Origin: Rhizophagus irregularis
Lineage: Eukaryota > Glomeromycota > Glomeromycetes > Glomerales > Glomeraceae
Reading direction: 5' to 3'
NCBI RefSeq assembly: GCF_026210795.1
Contig: NC_089455.1
Coordinates: 2,480,001-2,544,000, forward strand
DNA length: 64,000 nucleotides
The notes under the pieces are model-generated. The model was not told where the DNA came from and did not search any database. It worked only from the letters and a program-made list of their open reading frames with translations. Position 1 is the stretch's first letter. Every line of letters starts with the position of its first letter. Positions 2,928-59,726 of the stretch are shown in pieces. The translations under genes and the position numbers were made by a program.

Positions 2928-5138
<2,211 letters not shown>

Positions 5139-9754: not shown

Positions 9755-10045
9755 TTTAGGGTTAAAGGTTTTAAGGTTAAAGTTAATTCATCAATACTAA
9801 GTATGATGAGGGCAATAAGGTTAGGATTAGATCGGATAGGTTGAGGTTAAGGTTAGAGTTAGGGTTAGAGTTAGAGTCAGGGTTATAGTTAGGGTTATAG
9901 TTAAGGTTAGAGTTAGGATTAAAGTTAGGTTTGGAGTTAGGTTTAGAGTTAGGGATAGGATTAAGGATAGTGAGTGGAATGGGATAAAGAAAGAAGGAAT
10001 TTATTGTTAGAGTTAGGATTTGAATTAAGGTTAGGGTTAGAAAGA
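9755..10045 (+). repeat. Degenerate interstitial telomere-like (TTAGGG) tract
   Basis: The plus strand is built from TTAGGG, TTAGAG, TTATAG and TTAAGG hexamer variants, for example GTTAGGGTTAGAGTTAGAG. The densest parts are about 9840-9960 and 10015-10040. The G-rich strand points towards the right of the window. The minus-strand open frame over this block (Asn/Pro/Leu/Ser repeats) is a by-product of the hexamer period and is not a gene. Confidence 0.75.
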
Positions 10046-19206: not shown

Positions 19207-19870
19207 ATTGTTCAGAGCGTAGCGAAGGACTATATAATTTTACGAAGGTCGATGATAATTAGTGTCACGTGGCGATTTCCGGTTGTCTGCACACGTCATT
19301 TCTGATTGGTCCACACAGGATGTGTATTGAAATTTCATGCTACATCAAAATAAACAAGCTATGTAAACTTTGAATTTTCGAAACTTATTTTCTAGAAACA
19401 TTATCATTTTTTTTTTAGATTACACTGGAAATGCTAGAATTGTAAATTCTGTAATATGCCATTAAGAAATAATGATTACCTTTTTTTAGATTTCGGCTAG
19501 TAAGCATATTTTTCTTTTAAACGACTTTCTTATTTTTTTTCTAGGGTTTCTGGATTTCTTATACATACCGGACTAGTGAGTTTTTTTTATTTGTTTTGCT
19601 TTAAAAAAACATTTTTAACGTTTCATTTTTATTTTCTTTTATCAAGAAACGCAGGTTTTTTGTACATGCCAGACTTTTAAAGGTAAATTGTGACTTGTAA
19701 GGGCTTTTCTTATTTGTTTAACTTTAAAGAAACGTTTCTAACGTTTCATTTTTTATTTTTATTTTTTTAGGGATGCCAAATTTTTTGTACAAATTAAATT
19801 TTTAAAGATATTTGGATTTTTGTATAAAATCTTTCACTCCGGACTTACAACGGTTTCTGTTTCCTAGTTA
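19207..19870 (+). mobile_element. Dispersed repeat element, copy 1 (short)
   Basis: It begins TTGTTCAGAGCGTAGCGAAG and ends TACAACGGTTTCTGTTTCC + TAG. Those ends match a second copy at 20183-21145. After the head is a less AT-rich module with TCACGTGGCG and TGATTGGTCC (E-box and inverted CCAAT box). Exon-like blocks follow near 19545-19575 and 19640-19680 (the latter ends GACTTTTAAAG then GTAAAT). There is no obvious inverted terminal repeat. A head fragment also occurs inverted at 27982-28010, so the family is dispersed. Confidence 0.6.
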
Positions 19871-20182: not shown

Positions 20183-21145
20183 TTGTCCAGAGCGAAGCGA
20201 AGGACTATATATGTTTATGAACCTTAACGACATATTGGATCACGTGGCGAAGTCCGTTTGTCCGCACGCGTTATTTTTGATTGGTCCGCACAGAGCGTGT
20301 CATTGAATTGGAAAGAGGTGGTTTTTTTATTTGTTTGACTTTAAAGAAACGTTTCTAACGTTTCATTTTTTATTTTTTTTTCTAGGGACGCTGGGTTTTT
20401 TGTACACGCCAGTCTTTAAAGCAAAATAGAAAAGAAGGCTTTTCTTATTTGTTTGACTTTAAAGAAACGTTTCTAACGTTTCATTTCTTATTTTTTTTCT
20501 AGGGTTTCCGGATTTCGAGCATCACAAAGGACTTTAAAGGTAAATTGGGAAAAGGAGAGGGTTTTTTTTATTTGTTTGACTCTAAAGAAACGTTTCTAAC
20601 GTCTCATTTCTTATTTTTTATTTGTTTCAGATTTTTTGAATATACGGACTTTAAAGGTAAATCGGGGTTTTTTTTATTTGTTTGACTTTAAACGAAACGT
20701 TTAACGTTTCATTTTTATTTTTTTTTTTTTTTAGGGATGCTGGGATTTTGTACATGGCAGACTTTTAAAGGTAAATAAGGAAGAGGAACTTTTCTTATTT
20801 GTTTGAGTTTAAAGAAACGTTTCTAACATTTCATTTCTTGTTTTTTTAGGGGCGCCAGGATTTTGTACACACTGGACTTTTAAAGGTAAATTGGAAAGAG
20901 CAGATTTTTTATTTGTTTGATACTTTTTCGATAGGGTTTTTTAAATAAATTTTTTTTTTAATTTTTAACTTTAAAGAGATGTTCCTAATGTTTTAATTTT
21001 ATTTTCTTCGTAGGAACATAGTTCAAACTTAATCATTTTTTATCTTCGTTTTTACTAATTCGAAAAGTACAAATAAATAAAAATTTTTAAATTTTTTATA
21101 CAAAATTTTTCGCTCCGGACTCACAACGGTTTCCGTTTCCTAGTT
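20183..21145 (+). mobile_element. Dispersed repeat element, copy 2, with micro-exon-like cassettes
   Basis: It has the same head (TTGTCCAGAGCGAAGCGAAG), promoter-like module (ATCACGTGGCG at about 20239; TTGATTGGTCC at about 20277) and tail (CTCCGGACTCACAACGG) as copy 1. The interior is a tandem series: pyrimidine tract + TAG/CAG, a 26-37 nt block, then AAAG|GTAAAT. Blocks are 20503-20539, 20631-20656, 20734-20769 and 20850-20885; a further block starting at 20386 lacks a GT donor. Spacers of 77-91 nt each contain GAAACGTT...AACGTTTC-type inverted repeats (for example 20346-20364). It could be a repeated gene fragment, a non-coding transcript unit or a minisatellite. Confidence 0.6.
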
Positions 21146-26381: not shown

Positions 26382-28098
26382 TCTTGATAAGAAAGAGTAG
26401 AAGGATAAATAATGAGTAAAATTAATTATTGAAAGAATTGAAGAGATCCAGGCGCATTATATACAGTATATATATACGTTCAAACTTCATAATTATGTAT
26501 TAAATAATTTACGTTTCGATAGTTCGCTGTGTTCCACGACATTATATAATTAAATTGAATTTTCTTGTTTTCTATTATCGAAACCATATTTTTTTTGGGG
26601 TATGTACTTTAATCACGTAAACAAAAAATTAAATTTTTCTTGTAAATTTTATTCGTCTCTTGAAAAAAAAATTGTAATATTTGTAATACAATAATTTATG
26701 AGATTAATTAGTATTATAAGATAATTTTTTAATAAAAATTGAACAACGATTTTAATACAAAATTGTACTAAATTTTTTTTTTTGTTATCGTATGTAAAAT
26801 GTGATGTATTGTGTTACAGTTAAAGATATTTAGGACAGAAAGATTTTTTATTGAAATATCGTCTCTGCGAATCGTACATCCTAAAAAAAAAACACGGCTG
26901 TCAGCGGATGGAGGTACAAATTTTACTAAATAAATGAATTAAAAATTCGCAAAATATACAAACAAAAAAATTCATTATGACGTTTATGATGTCGACATAT
27001 ACCGAATTTCTCCCAATCAGCAGCGATTTTCAATGAGATACAGATCTGTTGATCACGCGGTTAGGTTGTACATAGCTGTTACTGCGGATAAAACGGTAAA
27101 CACTTTTAGAAAATAATACAAGTATTTTTAAAAAACAACTTGAGAATATAATTGTTCCAGTATCCGGAACATATTAATTGGTACTATAAATAACTATGGT
27201 TCCAGTACCCGAGGCATATTAAGTATTTAAGTGGTACTATAAATAACTAATTAAAAAGTAATTATAGTAATTAAATACTTCCATGTGGTCATAAGGAGTA
27301 AAGAAAAAATGATCCTAGTTTACATTAGTGCGAAATTAAATCCATTGATATAAATTCATCGGGTGTATACGTCGTATAATTGGGATATCTAAGAAAAACT
27401 CCATATAGAGTAATTCTCCCCCCTCCCTTCGGGGCATCATGAATATTTTAGTTATTCACCGATGCGATGTCCATTTGGATCATTTCGTGATACTCTGCGG
27501 TAAAGCTCTATTCATTGTTATTTTTAGACGGTGGATTCCAAATTATAAATGGCATATAATAAGGGATAGACTAGGATTTACCGGTTTATGTTTCAGTACA
27601 AATAACTCCAATTAGCACGTATTTAAATAAAACCTCCTTTTGCAACTTAATAGGGGAATTGGCAATTATATACAAAAAAAAAATATTGCCAAGGGCCCAT
27701 AATATCAAAACTAAAATAAGGAACAAAATCCTTTCCATAATTTAATGCGTGGACAGACATTTATAATTTTCATATGAGCAATATGAGCATTTGTTAATCA
27801 TGCTATTTAACTGCGGAATATCGGTAAGTAGTACAGTATGGTAGAGCTCGAATGTTCGTTATAAAATATTTTATTTTCAAAGAATACGAATAGTAAACAA
27901 TCTATGAGACAAAAAATCGTATACCAAATATACCAAATTCAAATTTATTATTTATATACATATATACTGTATATATATATAGAGTCCTTCGTTACGCTCC
28001 GGACAATGAAACAATTTACAATATTATACATAAATTATTAAATAAATTACTAACACTTTTCTAACCCCCACGGCCCCACCACCCCAAAAAGAAATATT
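26382..28098. other. Intergenic between tandem paralogues, with repeat fragments
   Basis: No gene was found. The promoter side of paralogue 1 has TATA-rich sequence near 26455-26480. About 27163-27250 is a short direct duplication (GTTCCAGTA-CCGG/CGAG...GGTACTATAAATAACTA). About 27350-27470 is related to 35620-35710. 27982-28010 is an inverted head fragment of the 19-21 kb repeat family (minus strand TTGTCCGGAGCGTAACGAAG). Confidence 0.5.
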
Positions 28099-51686: not shown

Positions 51687-52239
51687 ATGGCAAAATTCAC
51701 AAAATTAACGTTCGTTTGCGTTCTTGTCCTCGTTCTCCTTGTTTCCTTCAGCGTATCATCTCCTGGTTAGTAAATTAATCCCTTTTTACGGTTTCTTTTT
51801 TGGTTAAAAATTCCTTTTATTTAATTTATTCATTTTATTTTTTTTCTTAACAGAACGATTAGCTGTTCGTCAAGCACCTACACCAGATACTGGAGCTCCA
51901 GCACCAGGAGGTGATGCAACTCCACCAGCAGGTGGAGCCACACCAGGAGCAACTCCACCAGCAGCTGGAGGAGCACCACCAGCAGGAGCAACCCCACCAG
52001 CAGCTGGAGGAGCACCACCAGCAGGAGCAACCCCACCAGCAGGAGCAACTCCACCAGCAGGAGGAGCACCACCAGCAGGAGGTCCATCATCATCACCTTC
52101 TTCATCACCAACTGTGAGCGCTTCAGCTGCCGGCCCTAGTGGTAGCTCATCTCCAGCAGCAACAGGCGCTGCCTACAAAATTGAAAGTGGTTTATCTAGC
52201 GTTGTTGCCCTCGCTGCTCTCGTTGGTTATTTCTTGTAA
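51687..52239 (+). CDS. Small secreted Pro/Ala/Gly-rich GPI-type protein with PPAG repeats (paralogue B)
   Basis: Two exons (51687-51765, 51854-52239), phase-1 junction, 88 bp intron, 154 aa. Exon 1 is the signal peptide (MAKFTKLTFVCVLVLVLLVS). The mature protein starts ERLAVRQAPTPDTGAPAPG and continues as imperfect repeats of GATPPA / GGAPPA units (about residues 46-105). These are encoded by a tandem DNA repeat (CCACCAGCAGGAGCAAC-type unit). A Ser-rich linker and the hydrophobic tail ESGLSSVVALAALVGYFL follow, giving a likely GPI signal. There is no cysteine in the mature repeat region. Exon structure and both ends match paralogue A, while the middle is unrelated in detail, as expected for a fast-evolving repeat. 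It is probably a cell-wall/surface protein. Open frames on both strands over the repeat (51878-52117) are shadows. Confidence 0.8.
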
Positions 52240-54784: not shown

Positions 54785-56589
54785 AATTCTATGCTATTTA
54801 TATAATTCTCACGTAAAGTAAAAAAATTGCTGAACAACTCTGAACTCTGGAGTAGGCTATTTTTTTAAAAAAAAAAAATTTATTCTTTTAAGACAGTTCA
54901 TATTTTATGAATATTTAACGATTTTTATTGGTTTATAAGTAATTACGTTACATTTGTAAAAAAATTTACTTATACGTACAGCCATACTATTCTAAATTAA
55001 AAAAAAAACGCCAAACATATCACATAATATAAATCTACAACTAAAATCATTTTCTTTATTTTCTAGGCTTATTATTTATAACTTGTATTTTTATAAAAAG
55101 CGGCATTATGTCCTATTTTATTGCAAACACAATACTTATAAGAGCCTCTAGTTTTGGGCTTTTCTTAAGCATCCTGTTTCTTTTTCACACTACTCAAATA
55201 CCTTCACTTGGGTGGCTAACCTTTAGTAATAACTCTATTCAGATTTTTACATTTTAGAGGTTTATATCTATAATTTCTCAGTCTTTTTCAATTTCATTTT
55301 TCTCTATCTGACTACTAGTCTCTATTCTAAAATTAGTATCATTATAGTTTCTTTGAATTTCTTGGGATTATCAGATACTTCATCAATAGTGGATCTTTCA
55401 TCAATTATTGTTTGAAGTCTTTCAGACGTATTTCGATTGGATTTTCTTCTAACATAATCTTGAAGAATAAAAGTTATTTCATCATCTTCTTGCTCAACTG
55501 CAAGTAAAGTGGCTGTTCGTACTAATCTTCATACACAACTATATAAAATTCTTTTATGAATAGCCTTTTTAAGAATAGGAACAGTTATTGGAATCGTGAT
55601 AGGCTTTCATACAGATAATGTATTATTGTTTATAATTTCATCATCATGAATACGTACCTTCTTTATTGTTAAATATTACTTTTTCTTGCATGTTTGTTTC
55701 ATCTTAGTAAATATTCTTATACCATCTTTGAGGTATATTTTAGAATTCATCATAACATGAAAATAGTAACGATATATTATTCCCTTTGAGATAGACTTGA
55801 GACAAGAATACTGGTAAAATATTGCATTGACAATAATAACAAAATATACATAATTTTTTCTTTCACTTCGTATATTTACAACTTTCTATATTTCTAATAC
55901 TTCTTTTTGTCCTATTTCTTCAATCATAACCTGAAGTGTAATAAAATATGCATCAAGTTGATCTTCAATAAAACCATCTGATGATTTATGAAGATTTTCC
56001 TTTAATAATAGCAAGGTATTATTTAACATTAAAGTATATTGCAACTCAATTATTTATTAGTAACAACATACTTGCTTACAATTTAATTCTTCGTTATTGA
56101 ATTCAATCATATTTGCAGTAACAAATAAACATTGAGATATTTTTGTCTTACATCAGTAAATTTTTGGGATGCGGATCCCTAGAGATTCCAAATATCCCGT
56201 AATTAGTAAGGATCTCTAAGGAACCTTCCCCACCAGCGAGGATTCCTTATCAAAAGATTTTTAAAGGATCCTAAAATTACCATTAAGGAATCATTAAGGA
56301 TATTTATCATTATATTTATTTAATAGATTTATTATTAGTTAATTTATTTATTTATAAATTTAATAATGTATTTATTAATTTTTATTTATTTATCTATTAT
56401 CTATTATATATTATCGCAAATTTTTTCTGAATTAATAAAATATAGAACAATAATTAGAAAAGATCTATTTTAATTACAAAGTAAATTCTAAATAAAAAAT
56501 CAAAAAAATGTAAATATAAAGTTCTAAGGCAGAATCTACAATAAAAAAAATTAAAAATATAAGTAAACGTAATAAATAAAGGAATAAAA

Positions 56590-58310
56590 ATGATAAGTTT
56601 CGCAACAAAACTTACCATCTTTAAATTTTTAATTCTTCCATCGATGCCCAGATAACCTAAAATAAAAAATGTTGTTTAATTTCTATTAAAAAGAAAACAA
56701 ACGAGAAGTTTCTCAATGAAATTTACCATTTTTAACTCCTTAACTTCTTCATCAATACCATTCACCCTAACGAAATCTTACCCATCTAAAAAAGAGAAAA
56801 AATTGAAACGTTAATAAACGTTTCGTTAAAATCAATAAATTTAAAAAAATTAGTTTCTACCAAAATCCTATTGGATCCCTCACAAGACAAAGGAAAAAGA
56901 ACGTTAACTAACGTTCTCTAACGTTTCTAATAAAAAAAATATATGGTAGTCTTGCGAAATCTACCATTTCTATACGCCTATAAAACAAAGAAAGGGATAT
57001 TAGCAACATTCCTAATAAAAATAAAAAAGATGTAAGTTTCATGAAACTTACCATCTTTTTTAAGGATCTAAATCTCCAGAGACCCAAATCCCGAATCTTA
57101 CAAATAAAAGAAAAGGAAACATTAGTAAATGTTTCCCCAATAAAAAATAACAAAAAAAAGTTTTGTAACTTCCAGTTACAAAACTTACCACTCCAAATTT
57201 CCGGATTCAATTCACAGAATCTACAAAAAAAGAATAAGGAAACATTAACAAAAATTTCCTAAAAAAAAAACAATAAAATTTAAGTTTTGCAACAAAATGT
57301 TGCGAAACTTACCAAATCTCCAGGTTGAATGGCGAAACTGACCTAAAAAAGCTTAAAAAAGAAACATTAAAAGACATTTCTATTAATAAAAAATAAAATA
57401 AATTTAAATAGAAGTTTCACAACAAAACGTTGTGAGACTTACCCATCTTTAAAGTCCAAATCGCCTGAAACTTAAAGAAAGAGAGGGTGGGAAAAGAGAG
57501 AGAAGAAAATTAGAAAGAATGAAAGAAGAAAAGTAAAATTCCTTGCATAAATAAAAATAAAAAAAGTTATATATTTCCTAAATACATACCCGACTCCATA
57601 TCCAAAGTTCAGAGTTAATAAGTCCAGTAACCGAAAACAGGACCCCGGATATCTCCAAAACAGGTCATAAATCACACTTTCGGCAGATTGGCCCATTTTT
57701 CAAGGGCTCAAAAAATTGTTTTTTGTAAATATCTCGGCATCCAGTGGTCCAATTTTGATGAACTTTTTTTAAATTGTAGAGCTAAATGAGGGCTACAAAA
57801 TAAAAAAAAGTTCATTAAAATTGAATTACTGGATGCTGAGATATTTACAAAAAACGATTTTTTGAGTTTCAGCAAAAAGGTGTGTTTTTGGCCAAAAGTC
57901 CATTATGACCTTTATATTAGATATCCGGGGTCCTCCGAAAACTACCATAAGCCATCAAGTAAAAGCAAATTTTCACGCCGCCCAGAGACCCAAAAAATAC
58001 CTAAAAAAAAATGAAAAAATGAACAATTAGAAATATTCGTTAAAATAAAAAAAAATGTTTCTTTATCTTACTTTCACCCAGAATCCCAAAAAAAAACTAA
58101 AAAAGAAAAAAGAACAATTAGTAATGTTCGTTATAATGAAAAAAAACAATAAAGTTTTTTTACTTACCTATTTCACGCCCAGATATTCGAAAAAATACCT
58201 AAAAAAAGGAGAAAATGAACAATTAGAAATGTTCATTAAAATAAAGAAAAAATAAAGAAAAAAAATACCTGCCAAATGCCGCGTCCAAAAAACTGAAGAG
58301 CCGTCTAAAA
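56590..58310 (-). repeat. Tandem exon-like micro-cassettes with hairpin-bearing spacers
   Basis: On the minus strand short blocks sit between a pyrimidine-rich acceptor (TTTTTAG, TTTGTAG, TCTTTAAG) and a GTAAGT-type donor. Examples are 58269-58304 (36 nt), 58168-58198 (31), 57443-57470 (28), 57313-57342 (30), 57189-57220 (32) and 57052-57096 (45). Spacers are about 70-100 nt (92 nt twice). Right after several donors is a hairpin: plus-strand 57412-57440, 57282-57310, 57158-57186 and 57034-57049. A second inverted repeat lies upstream of the pyrimidine tract (57115-57136, 56899-56916, 56805-56824). Blocks share TCTGGAGATTT and GGACTTTAAAGATG motifs. Joining four adjacent blocks (57470 to 57052) gives stops in all frames, so long coding capacity is doubtful. 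Confidence 0.6.
57618..57950. repeat. About 330 bp palindrome inside the 2.9 kb element
   Basis: The arms are inverse copies of about 150 bp around a centre near 57785-57800. GTAAATATCTCGGCATCCAG (about 57726) pairs with CTGGATGCTGAGATATTTAC (about 57832). GGACCCCGGATATCTCC (about 57642) pairs with GATATCCGGGGTCC (about 57928). GGTCATAAATCA pairs with TTATGACC. The left arm contains a 35-codon frame starting at 57696 (minus strand, MGQSAESVIYDLFWRY), ending near a GGTATG donor, that could act as a larger exon-like block. Confidence 0.65.
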
Positions 58311-59726
58311 AGTAACAATTAAATAAAAAAGTTTCAAAAAATTAATTTGAAAAATAAAATACAATAATATTTATTTTTCAAAAATAGTTGGTAGGTATAT
58401 TCTATTAACATGAAATGAAGGAAAAAAAAGAAAGAAAATAAAGAAAAAAACGTGTAAAAGGGGAAGAGAATGCATGAAGAAGGGAATAGAAAGAATGTAT
58501 AGGAAACACGTAAAAGGGGGAAGGAAAAAATGTATGAAGGGAAGGGAAGAATATGTGAAGTGCATGAAGTGAAGAGAAATTACGCGTAATGGAAGGTTTT
58601 TTTTCGGCAAGTCATGTGACTGATCAGTGATCATGTACAATTAAAGTTTCACAAATGATTTTGTGACAGATTTGTAAAATCATTTGACGCGAACTTGTAA
58701 AATTAAAATTATAAGATACTTAAATAAAGAATTCTTGAAGTTTTTTTATTAGGAATCCTTAAGAATCCTATAATTTATAGAATCTATACATGCTGCCCAA
58801 ATTATTTTGGGATGCTATAATTATAATTTGGGATGCCATAATTCATTCAGTTTATATATAATTTACTATGTAAAGTGCCAAAATAATTTGGGATGCCATA
58901 ATTGAATTTGGGATTTTACTTATAATTATGGCAATCCAAAATAATTTGGGTGGCATGTATAATAGAATCCTAAAAGATCTTTAAGATTTATTAAGAGATT
59001 TTTAAGGAATCCATAAAATATTAGATCTCCAAGGATTTTATAGAAATTTACAGAATCCCTAGGGATCTGTATACCAAAAAATTTACTGATGTAATTGTAT
59101 TATTAATAGGTTCAGTAAGATATTTATCAAGAATTTTTGCTACTATAGAAAACAAATCTTGTCCAGTCATAGAAGAAGTATTTGTTGTAGTAGCTTACTT
59201 GTATTTGTAAAACTGATTCTATCGCTCTTTATCTTTTAGCCTTGAATCAAGTCGATCAGCAATCTCACATAAGGTACTATTAGCTTTTAATTGTTGCTTT
59301 ATAATCCAATTATAACTTTCAACTTTTGCAGTACTTTCAATACCAGCTGTGAAAATTTTATGAAGGTATGTTTGAGCCCAAAATCTAGAATTTTGATCTA
59401 ATGTACGTAAAAGATAGTCTTTATTTTGCCATTAGATAATTAATAAGTAATTGGTTTCATCTTTGCTTAAATAGTGGTTCACATAAACTATTGCGGCATT
59501 GATAGAACTGTTTAATGAAATAGTCCTATTTCTTACCTAATTTTGCTTTCAAATTTTTAGGTAAATTTTGCGTAATATGAAAAATACAGTGAGCTGGATA
59601 TATTTTAGAAAAAATGATTGGAATTGCTGTATCAAGAACTGGATCAGCATTAGTAAACATCACAATTGGAGCTGTTTCAGTTGCTTTTTTGATGCATTCA
59701 AGTATTCACACATGTGTATTAAGAGT

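Follow-up and report, generated by a model that had tools for sequence, protein, structure and literature searches.

The 64,000-nucleotide stretch of Rhizophagus irregularis DNA analysed here (the window, C27:2480001-2544000) carries on its minus strand, from 58304 down to 56535, a chain of short exon-like blocks separated by intron-like spacers rich in hairpins. The chain belongs to a family of tandem arrays dispersed over the genome, of which 146.7 Mb in 32 contigs were searched. The repeated unit would be a short non-coding exon of about 37 nt followed by a spliceosomal-type intron of about 84 nt, and the arrays are probably the cargo of non-autonomous DNA transposons. Judged from sequence, this reading is given a probability of about 0.55. 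The evidence consists of the anatomy of the arrays, the ends of two carriers, the conservation of splice sites between paralogous arrays, the fast change of the exons and a covariation of the hairpin stems without clear wobble tolerance. Arrays of this kind occur in no fewer than two distinct types of carrier element.

Each block of the window array lies between a pyrimidine-rich acceptor and a GTAAGT-like donor. The block lengths are mostly 13-45 nt (including 36, 31, 25, 22, 30, 32 and 45 nt and a single 13-nt block), and one long block contains a nested transposon. Donors that read exactly GTAAGT are placed at 58167, 57442, 57312, 57188, 57051 and 56615, the remaining ones being GTAAGA, GTATGT, GTAGAT and GTAAAT. 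Several donors have a hairpin directly downstream, and a second hairpin precedes the pyrimidine tract and encloses a branch-point-like CTAAC/TTAAC motif. An original prediction, made from the letters of the stretch, had described micro-exon-like blocks on the minus strand, with one stem at the donor and another ahead of the pyrimidine tract. This array is real, with hairpin and pattern counts far beyond those of shuffled and control sequence, and the second stem is present around the motif. The two adjacent 92-nt spacers that it had pointed out are the introns 57312-57221 and 57188-57097. Its four quoted donor arm pairs are all found, with one C-A mismatch each in AAGTTTCGCAAC/GTTGCAAAACTT and AAGTCTCACAAC/GTTGTGAAACTT. 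The prediction overlooked two things about the interval 56590-58310: a transposon is nested in it at 57934-57639, and a longer element surrounds the array.

The family is large. The branch-point pattern GAAACGTT N2-8 AACGTTTC has 926 genome matches versus 1 for the control pattern, and the donor hairpin pattern GGTAAGTTT N2-10 AAACTTA has 175 strand-wise matches versus 16 for its control, some places being matched on both strands. Among the branch-point matches listed, 50 distinct places lie on the initial 5.2 Mb of C1; 12 clusters take up 43 of these and 7 are single. Fifteen loci were chosen among the 100 rows listed for the donor pattern; 10 contain at least three branch-point units and 14 at least one (E up to 0.01). 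Because the exact branch-point pattern recovers 34 of the 104 units in these fifteen loci and matches 926 times, a rough extrapolation suggests about 2,800 units genome-wide. Scaling the 12 clusters, or the 12 clusters together with the 7 singles, leads to an equally rough extrapolation of 340-530 loci. In the window, a covariance model whose training set included both window arrays reports at E below 0.001 this array and a second one at 19.6-21.0 kb on the plus strand, and nowhere else. A stricter pattern of branch point plus acceptor was too narrow, with 4 places.

The typical unit was obtained from 30 oriented array sequences, in which 243 introns were called automatically. Introns have a median length of 84 nt and the 207 exons one of 37 nt (quartiles 31 and 44), although some exons above 60 nt probably conceal a missed intron. 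Of the 243 introns, 222 end in a TAG acceptor and 121 begin with a GTAAGT donor; the set counts both the loci L009 and L029. Four loci (L012, L019, L022 and L041) have another geometry than the window array: a stem joins the exon end, TTCGAAG, to the intron start, GTA...CTTCGAA, and holds the GT in its loop. At L015 (C1:5092000-5094000) the 10 called introns have no strong donor stem; this array stands directly upstream of a stretch that resembles, by eye, a protein kinase catalytic loop, and its exon-like units might join a coding gene. The sequence TTTGTCACATGACCGAAA was considered as a shared array promoter. It occurs at 25 exact places; of 12 fetched besides L013, only 3 (L019, L022 and L027) have branch-point units, and it is not a general promoter.

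Comparison of paralogous arrays separates the splice sites from the rest of the unit. A symmetric test was used, in which the splice sites called in either copy are set against every other GT or AG present in either copy. Across 10 paralogue alignments the splice dinucleotides differ at 3 of 420 bases, versus 282 of 3300 for the same dinucleotides elsewhere (Fisher p=8e-12); the differing bases are 0 of 200 in GT and 3 of 220 in AG. The ten pairs are not all independent, L043 being used twice and three pairs coming from one group of six. The exons, on the other hand, are the fastest part. In five pairs, the exons differ at 60/901 non-CpG sites, other intron sequence at 54/1546 and the flanks at 117/3364. 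The exon excess is confined to A/T sites (5.9% versus 2.7-2.8%; p about 3e-4 against introns and 5e-4 against flanks), and G/C sites have none (exons 8.2%, introns 8.5%, flanks 5.6%). These rates rest on unit calls in one copy, and again use L043 twice. The splice sites are conserved while the exons change fastest; therefore the capacity for splicing appears to be kept and the exon text not. As far as the alignments allow it to be read, the kept feature of the dispersed arrays is the predicted ability to be spliced, not the exon sequence.

These counts bear on the idea that the arrays are an inert palindromic satellite spread by transposons, the splice signals being relics of an intron-bearing ancestor with no present splicing. 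The arrays are tandem, mobile, high in copy number and fast-changing, as such a satellite would be, and the second type of carrier, described below, has copies without clear splice-site conservation. A relic would hardly account for the conservation of GT and AG in the dispersed arrays (3/420 versus 282/3300), and present inertness is judged quite unlikely. The palindrome-prone satellite of the original prediction holds in part only: the arrays are tandem and keep complementarity without clear wobble tolerance. Its proposal of a spliced non-coding RNA gains support, at the level of sequence, from the splice dinucleotides and from coding tests that are mostly negative.

The arrays are unlikely to be protein-coding because exon lengths are flat modulo 3 (60/74/73), related exons of one array lie in different frames, frames open in one copy carry stops in paralogues, and exon indels are mostly not multiples of three. 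In six paralogue pairs 9 indels are multiples of three, all of them in L010/L011, versus 38 others. A protein-coding repeat gene, for example of the kind of the SP7-like effector genes with repeat units (PMC11333574, as far as the accessible part of that source describes them), is in our judgement highly improbable. It would be favoured by the open runs found in some arrays, which are given below, and by L016, whose three frames contain 1, 11 and 7 stops. Nothing in the window or in 7 array loci reached the Rfam gathering score in a search for known RNAs, in which a small nucleolar RNA (snoRNA) absent from Rfam would stay invisible.

The hairpins are far more frequent than chance. Hairpins of at least 9 Watson-Crick pairs number 280 in the sampled arrays versus 8, 9 and 8 in three local shuffles. 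Stems and folds were evaluated in 221 introns, a set that excludes introns outside 55-130 nt, L009 where L029 was used and one strand of L027. The controls were 18 introns called automatically in TCP1-type genes, with frames not checked. Among the 221 introns, 49% have a donor stem of 8 or more pairs that begins just within the intron, versus 8% of shuffled ones, and 29% have one of 10 or more pairs, versus 0.8% of shuffled and 0/18 control introns. Straddling stems, with 7 or more pairs across the junction and the GT in the loop, occur in 17% versus 2.9% of shuffled and 1/18 control introns. Either type of stem is found in 62% of the array introns, and 38% reach neither threshold. The GAAACGTT...AACGTTTC hairpin was not seen by eye in the 18 control introns.

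The stems also covary. In a seed alignment of 46 branch-point stems, preselected for the hairpin, 26 cells are changed on both sides versus 8.5 in shuffles. A sequence-only profile made from the same seeds collects 176 distinct rows, with 1380 Watson-Crick cells versus 1275 expected. When the outer anchors alone are fixed (GTAAGTTT-like and AAACTT), 75 distinct inner segments contain 282 Watson-Crick inner pairs versus 187.6 expected (sd 7.7), the highest of 2000 shuffles being 215. Identical rows were merged in the covariation counts, and L053-L056 were left out of the anchor-fixed count and of the inner-stem classes; the anchor-fixed count also omits L009, in favour of L029, and one strand of L027. 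Inner pair 3 is Watson-Crick in 69/72 cases versus 24.7 expected and takes three types (AT 30, TA 21, CG 18). The inner-stem blocks have exact partners, perfect in 18/20 of the AAG class and in 16/16 of the CAA class. The covariation of the stems is beyond column composition.

Such covariation is what would be expected if the hairpins were selected RNA structures governing splicing, with donor and branch-point stems that hide the splice signals or juxtapose them. To the anchor-fixed covariation can be added the excess of donor stems of at least 8 and at least 10 pairs and of straddling stems over shuffled and control introns, the greater stability of 194/221 array introns relative to their interior-shuffled versions, and 12 rows of compensated hairpins between paralogues, not all independent. 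The behaviour of the mismatches is different. G-U is not preferred over A-C in the branch-point stem (49 versus 81 in the 176 rows, with 81 and 108 expected) or in the CpG pairs of the donor stems (20 and 20). The CpG pairs 1 and 2 beside the anchors are uncompensated (54 versus 52.9 and 55 versus 53.3 expected). Non-CpG differences reach 12/323 in donor stems, 117/3364 in flanks and 5/188 in other stems; the donor-stem bases are conserved no more than the flanks. Averaged over the 221 array introns, donor bases +1 to +6 are unpaired with a probability of 0.34; the value is 0.36 when the interior is shuffled and 0.34 for 16 control introns. Donor accessibility is not below the controls, and the hidden splice sites of the original prediction are not borne out. 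The two hairpin geometries, together with the 38% of introns under both thresholds, also fit poorly with one selected fold, which we consider doubtful. The paired changes that had been taken as a sign of a kept fold thus stand as covariation (282 versus 187.6), but G-U is not clearly favoured over A-C and the CpG pairs are uncompensated. The hairpins do not look like an RNA fold selected pair by pair. Most likely, as their sequences suggest, the palindromes were written at the DNA level, were then propagated along with the units and are being eroded by CpG mutation.

Homologous hairpins were compared for traces of such writing. Among 401 comparisons, 132 are identical, 131 differ in length and were unscored, and 138 are changed at equal length; some of the compensated rows repeat one event or are shifted. 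AAA and TTT loops are both found in one stem context. Loop inversion, considered as a mark of template switching, is not claimed, with just one doubtful case between homologous units.

The window array is carried by an element of 2.9 kb between inverted repeats. Its terminal pattern has 12 genome matches (up to 2 mismatches) versus 0 for the control. TA stands on both sides in this one copy, which is too short to prove a target-site duplication; judging by the TA target, the element may be Tc1/mariner-like. A palindromic miniature inverted-repeat transposable element (MITE) is nested in the array, presumably hAT-like judging by the length of its 8-bp direct repeat, and has 38 other places at 96-99% identity among the best 40 candidates scored. 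One close paralogue of the window array is on C17, 79-94% identical by piece; its left end is the same as that of the window element, and on the right it abuts the end of another element. Three more distant relatives were found. Two of them (L066 and L067) keep branch-point units, and the third (L065) gave no such unit at E up to 0.05. Sequences like ATCCTTAAGGATT recur just inside the element ends, at about 56.2-56.3 and 58.75-59.1 kb of the window and in the C17 copy.

The window's other array sits within a HINE-like (Helitron-type) element. Eight aligned copies of this element have sharp common ends like TTGTCCGGAGCGAAGCGAAGGAC and TTCGCTCCGGACTTACAACGGTTTCCGTTTCCTAG, with A before in 7/8 and T after in 8/8. 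Subterminal inverted repeats are present (GTCCGGAGCGAA-like in the left module and TTCGCTCCGGAC-like in the right), and a 3' palindrome, AACGG-TTT-CCGTT, immediately precedes TCCTAG. Tandem branch-point units stand between the modules in 7/7 fetched copies (L058-L064). No target duplication consistent by eye was seen in the 8 copies, with a possible 10-bp repeat in L060. The 3' end has 205 matches (up to 2 mismatches) versus 0 for the control; many differ by one base of the palindrome loop, and not all are shown to bear an array. No end of this type (up to 4 mismatches) is found near 56-59 kb, where inverted repeats stand instead. The two HINE-like copies of the window, at 19208-19867 and 20183-21143, are side by side, and another 5' end of this type is at 28006 on the minus strand, its 3' end not being found in the window scan.

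In both L030 and L043 a second, unrelated AT-rich tandem repeat follows downstream of the array; therefore the shared segment exceeds the array. The apparent 100-bp inverted ends of L052-L057 were rejected, as on inspection they are pyrimidine-rich versus purine-rich low-complexity stretches.

What is dispersed bears on whether each intron might be its own mobile unit, an introner-like self-copying intron. Many introns are similar, and multiplying fungal symmetrical introns and stwintrons are described in the accessible part of PMC8469720. In the loci read, the units stand head to tail with their exons, and the thing dispersed is the whole array within element ends. No resemblance was noted by eye in the 18 automatically called TCP1 introns, coding genes being otherwise not surveyed for introner copies. 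Introner-like copying is considered very unlikely. The self-copying unit of the original prediction survives only in another form: whole arrays are mobile-element cargo, and single units are not seen moving.

Under the preferred reading of transposon-borne, spliced arrays, the arrays would give rise to transcripts that are spliced, and for these RNAs the splicing event itself, or the intron, would count more than the exon sequence. The palindromes would be made and refreshed at the DNA level, by template switching or by the spread of whole units, and after their formation would decay through CpG mutation instead of a pairwise upkeep of the RNA fold. The window copy would have arisen as a 2.9 kb inverted-repeat element into which the MITE inserted later. 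A further, speculative step, for which the odds are clearly against us, is that these loci may form a new class of non-coding locus, namely transposon-borne micro-intron arrays in which splicing rather than an exon product is selected. Splicing may then protect the transcript of the element from RNA silencing triggered by intron retention, or permit its export, and unrelated transposon types may have acquired the array since it aids persistence.

Several observations weigh against the preferred reading. The largest group (L013/L016/L030/L032/L043), whose carrier is undelimited, contributes some of the splice-site signal. A single window-type element was seen in which both inverted repeats are clean; by eye, the C17 copy has diverged at its right end. 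Six HINE-like copies are without clear splice-site conservation (GT 5/140, AG 6/115 and the rest 700/13136, with sites from one copy only), as an inert satellite would be. The longest open run of joined exons beats mononucleotide shuffles (P<0.05) in 4/18 arrays: L009 and its near-copy L029 (0.016; the two are 98% identical), the second window array (0.036) and L035 (0.044). Donor stems of at least 8 pairs are also present in 5/18 control introns; therefore the 8-pair threshold alone is unspecific. The internal mismatches of the donor stems lean mildly to G-U (22 versus 14 A-C), as do those of other long hairpins (21 versus 19), in the direction of a selected RNA. The inner stem mostly switches between two blocks, AAG (20) and CAA (16) dominating among 59 segments, so that few of its changes are independent. 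Finally, the traces of template switching are sparse, the 138 changed hairpins containing 9 single and 3 multiple compensations and 1 doubtful loop inversion.

Table 1. Coordinates of the two arrays of the window, of their carriers and of the parts of the minus-strand array.
Feature	Position	Strand	Remarks
Whole mobile element carrying the window array	56151..59091	-	inverted repeats identical in 34/39 columns (counted by eye); TA adjoining both ends
Left terminal inverted repeat	59053..59091	-	CATCAGTAAATTTTTTGG...GATTC
Leader, then pyrimidine-rich stretch	58320..58742	-	part conserved in C17 copy; partial matches at C17, C20, C8, C1
Exon-like block 1	58269..58304	-	36 nt; splice-signal reading
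Intron	58199..58268	-	70 nt; branch-point hairpin TGAACATTTCTAATTGTTCA
Exon-like block 2	58168..58198	-	31 nt
Intron	58097..58167	-	71 nt; GTAAGT donor
Exon-like block 3	58072..58096	-	25 nt; 27 nt in C17 copy
Intron	58001..58071	-	71 nt; GTAAGA donor
Long exon-like block 4	57590..58000	-	broken by nested transposon
Nested palindromic MITE	57639..57934		296 bp; 8-bp direct repeat GTTTTCGG on each side; C17 copy is the empty site
Exon-like block 5	57443..57464	-	22 nt; 28 nt with AAG acceptor before 57470
Intron	57343..57442	-	donor hairpin AAGTCTCACAAC/GTTGTGAAACTT; following exon from 57342 (57351 in automatic calling)
Exon-like block 6	57313..57342	-	30 nt
Intron	57221..57312	-	92 nt; donor hairpin AAGTTTCGCAAC/GTTGCAAAACTT
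Exon-like block 7	57189..57220	-	32 nt
Intron	57097..57188	-	92 nt; donor hairpin AAGTTTTGTAAC/GTTACAAAACTT; branch-point hairpin GGAAACAT/ATGTTTCC
Exon-like block 8	57052..57096	-	45 nt
Intron	56978..57051	-	74 nt; donor hairpin AAGTTTCA/TGAAACTT
Less regular 3' part	56535..56977	-	donors 56964, 56860, 56781, 56726, 56615; exon starts 56785, 56656, 56535
Right terminal inverted repeat	56151..56188	+
Second array of the family	20183..21143	+	within HINE-like (Helitron-type) element
Second, shorter copy of HINE-like element	19208..19867	+	branch-point units at 19599 and 19722

Three further repeats of the window stand apart from the arrays. About 100 bp of GTTAGGGTTAGA repeats at 9852-9958 resemble an interstitial telomere repeat. 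A G+C-rich repeat of 18/39/54 bp (CCACCAGCAGGAGGAGCC) at 51916-52081 lies within an open stretch, 51808-52239. At 2933-3445 a 257-bp unit is present in two 99% identical copies, a recent tandem duplication.

If the arrays are spliced, they would provide micro-introns in very large natural numbers, useful for learning how the spliceosome deals with exons of 25-45 nt, and would open the question of what a transposon needs splicing for. They also serve as a warning: the covariation is large and comes without clear wobble tolerance, and in palindromic repeats covariation alone does not amount to a selected RNA fold.

The window element resembles a MITE or a non-autonomous transposon with terminal inverted repeats in its inverted ends and the TA on both sides, and differs from a MITE in its length of 2.9 kb, filled with an array of splice signals. 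Multi-exon long non-coding RNA genes and snoRNA host genes keep their splice sites while their exons drift. The present arrays differ from them in being tandem and mobile, with tiny exons and without the Rfam match looked for in the window and the 7 loci. Symmetrical stwintrons and introner-like introns of the Hypoxylaceae are likewise multiplying fungal intron families with inverted-repeat structure; according to the accessible part of their description, they occupy novel gene positions and have terminal inverted repeats of 45-55 nt, whereas the hairpins here are local and in tandem arrays (PMC8469720).

DNA template switching is a published route to hairpins, and the available part of PMC8794818 calls a role in their maintenance less clear than one in their origin. 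The hairpins of the arrays agree with that route in having perfect stems in which several pairs change jointly, with no need of a wobble intermediate; they differ in that loop inversions, one of the predicted footprints, are not convincingly found.

For Rhizophagus irregularis, about two thirds of the transposable elements reportedly lack a classification (PMC11075540, from the portion available), and a literature search, with most subscription journals outside its coverage, found no description of such exon-intron arrays. The nearest known systems are HINE/Helentron non-autonomous elements with embedded satellite-like tandem repeats, such as Cg_HINE of the oyster and the DINE-1 group of Drosophila; the accessible text describes two modules, often separated by a tandem array, together with a 3' palindrome and inverted repeats in subterminal position (PMC7492417). 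The carrier of the second array is like them in its subterminal inverted repeats, its 3'-end palindrome, the array between modules and its dispersal, and perhaps, judged by eye in the 8 copies, in the lack of a consistent target duplication. The carrier of the first array is not a HINE, having terminal inverted repeats in place of HINE-like ends. Compared with what that part of the source describes, the repeat unit itself is different here, with the anatomy of an exon and an intron (donor, branch point, polypyrimidine tract and acceptor). Satellites carried by transposons are known; an intron-exon unit that serves as the satellite and keeps its splice sites seems to be new.

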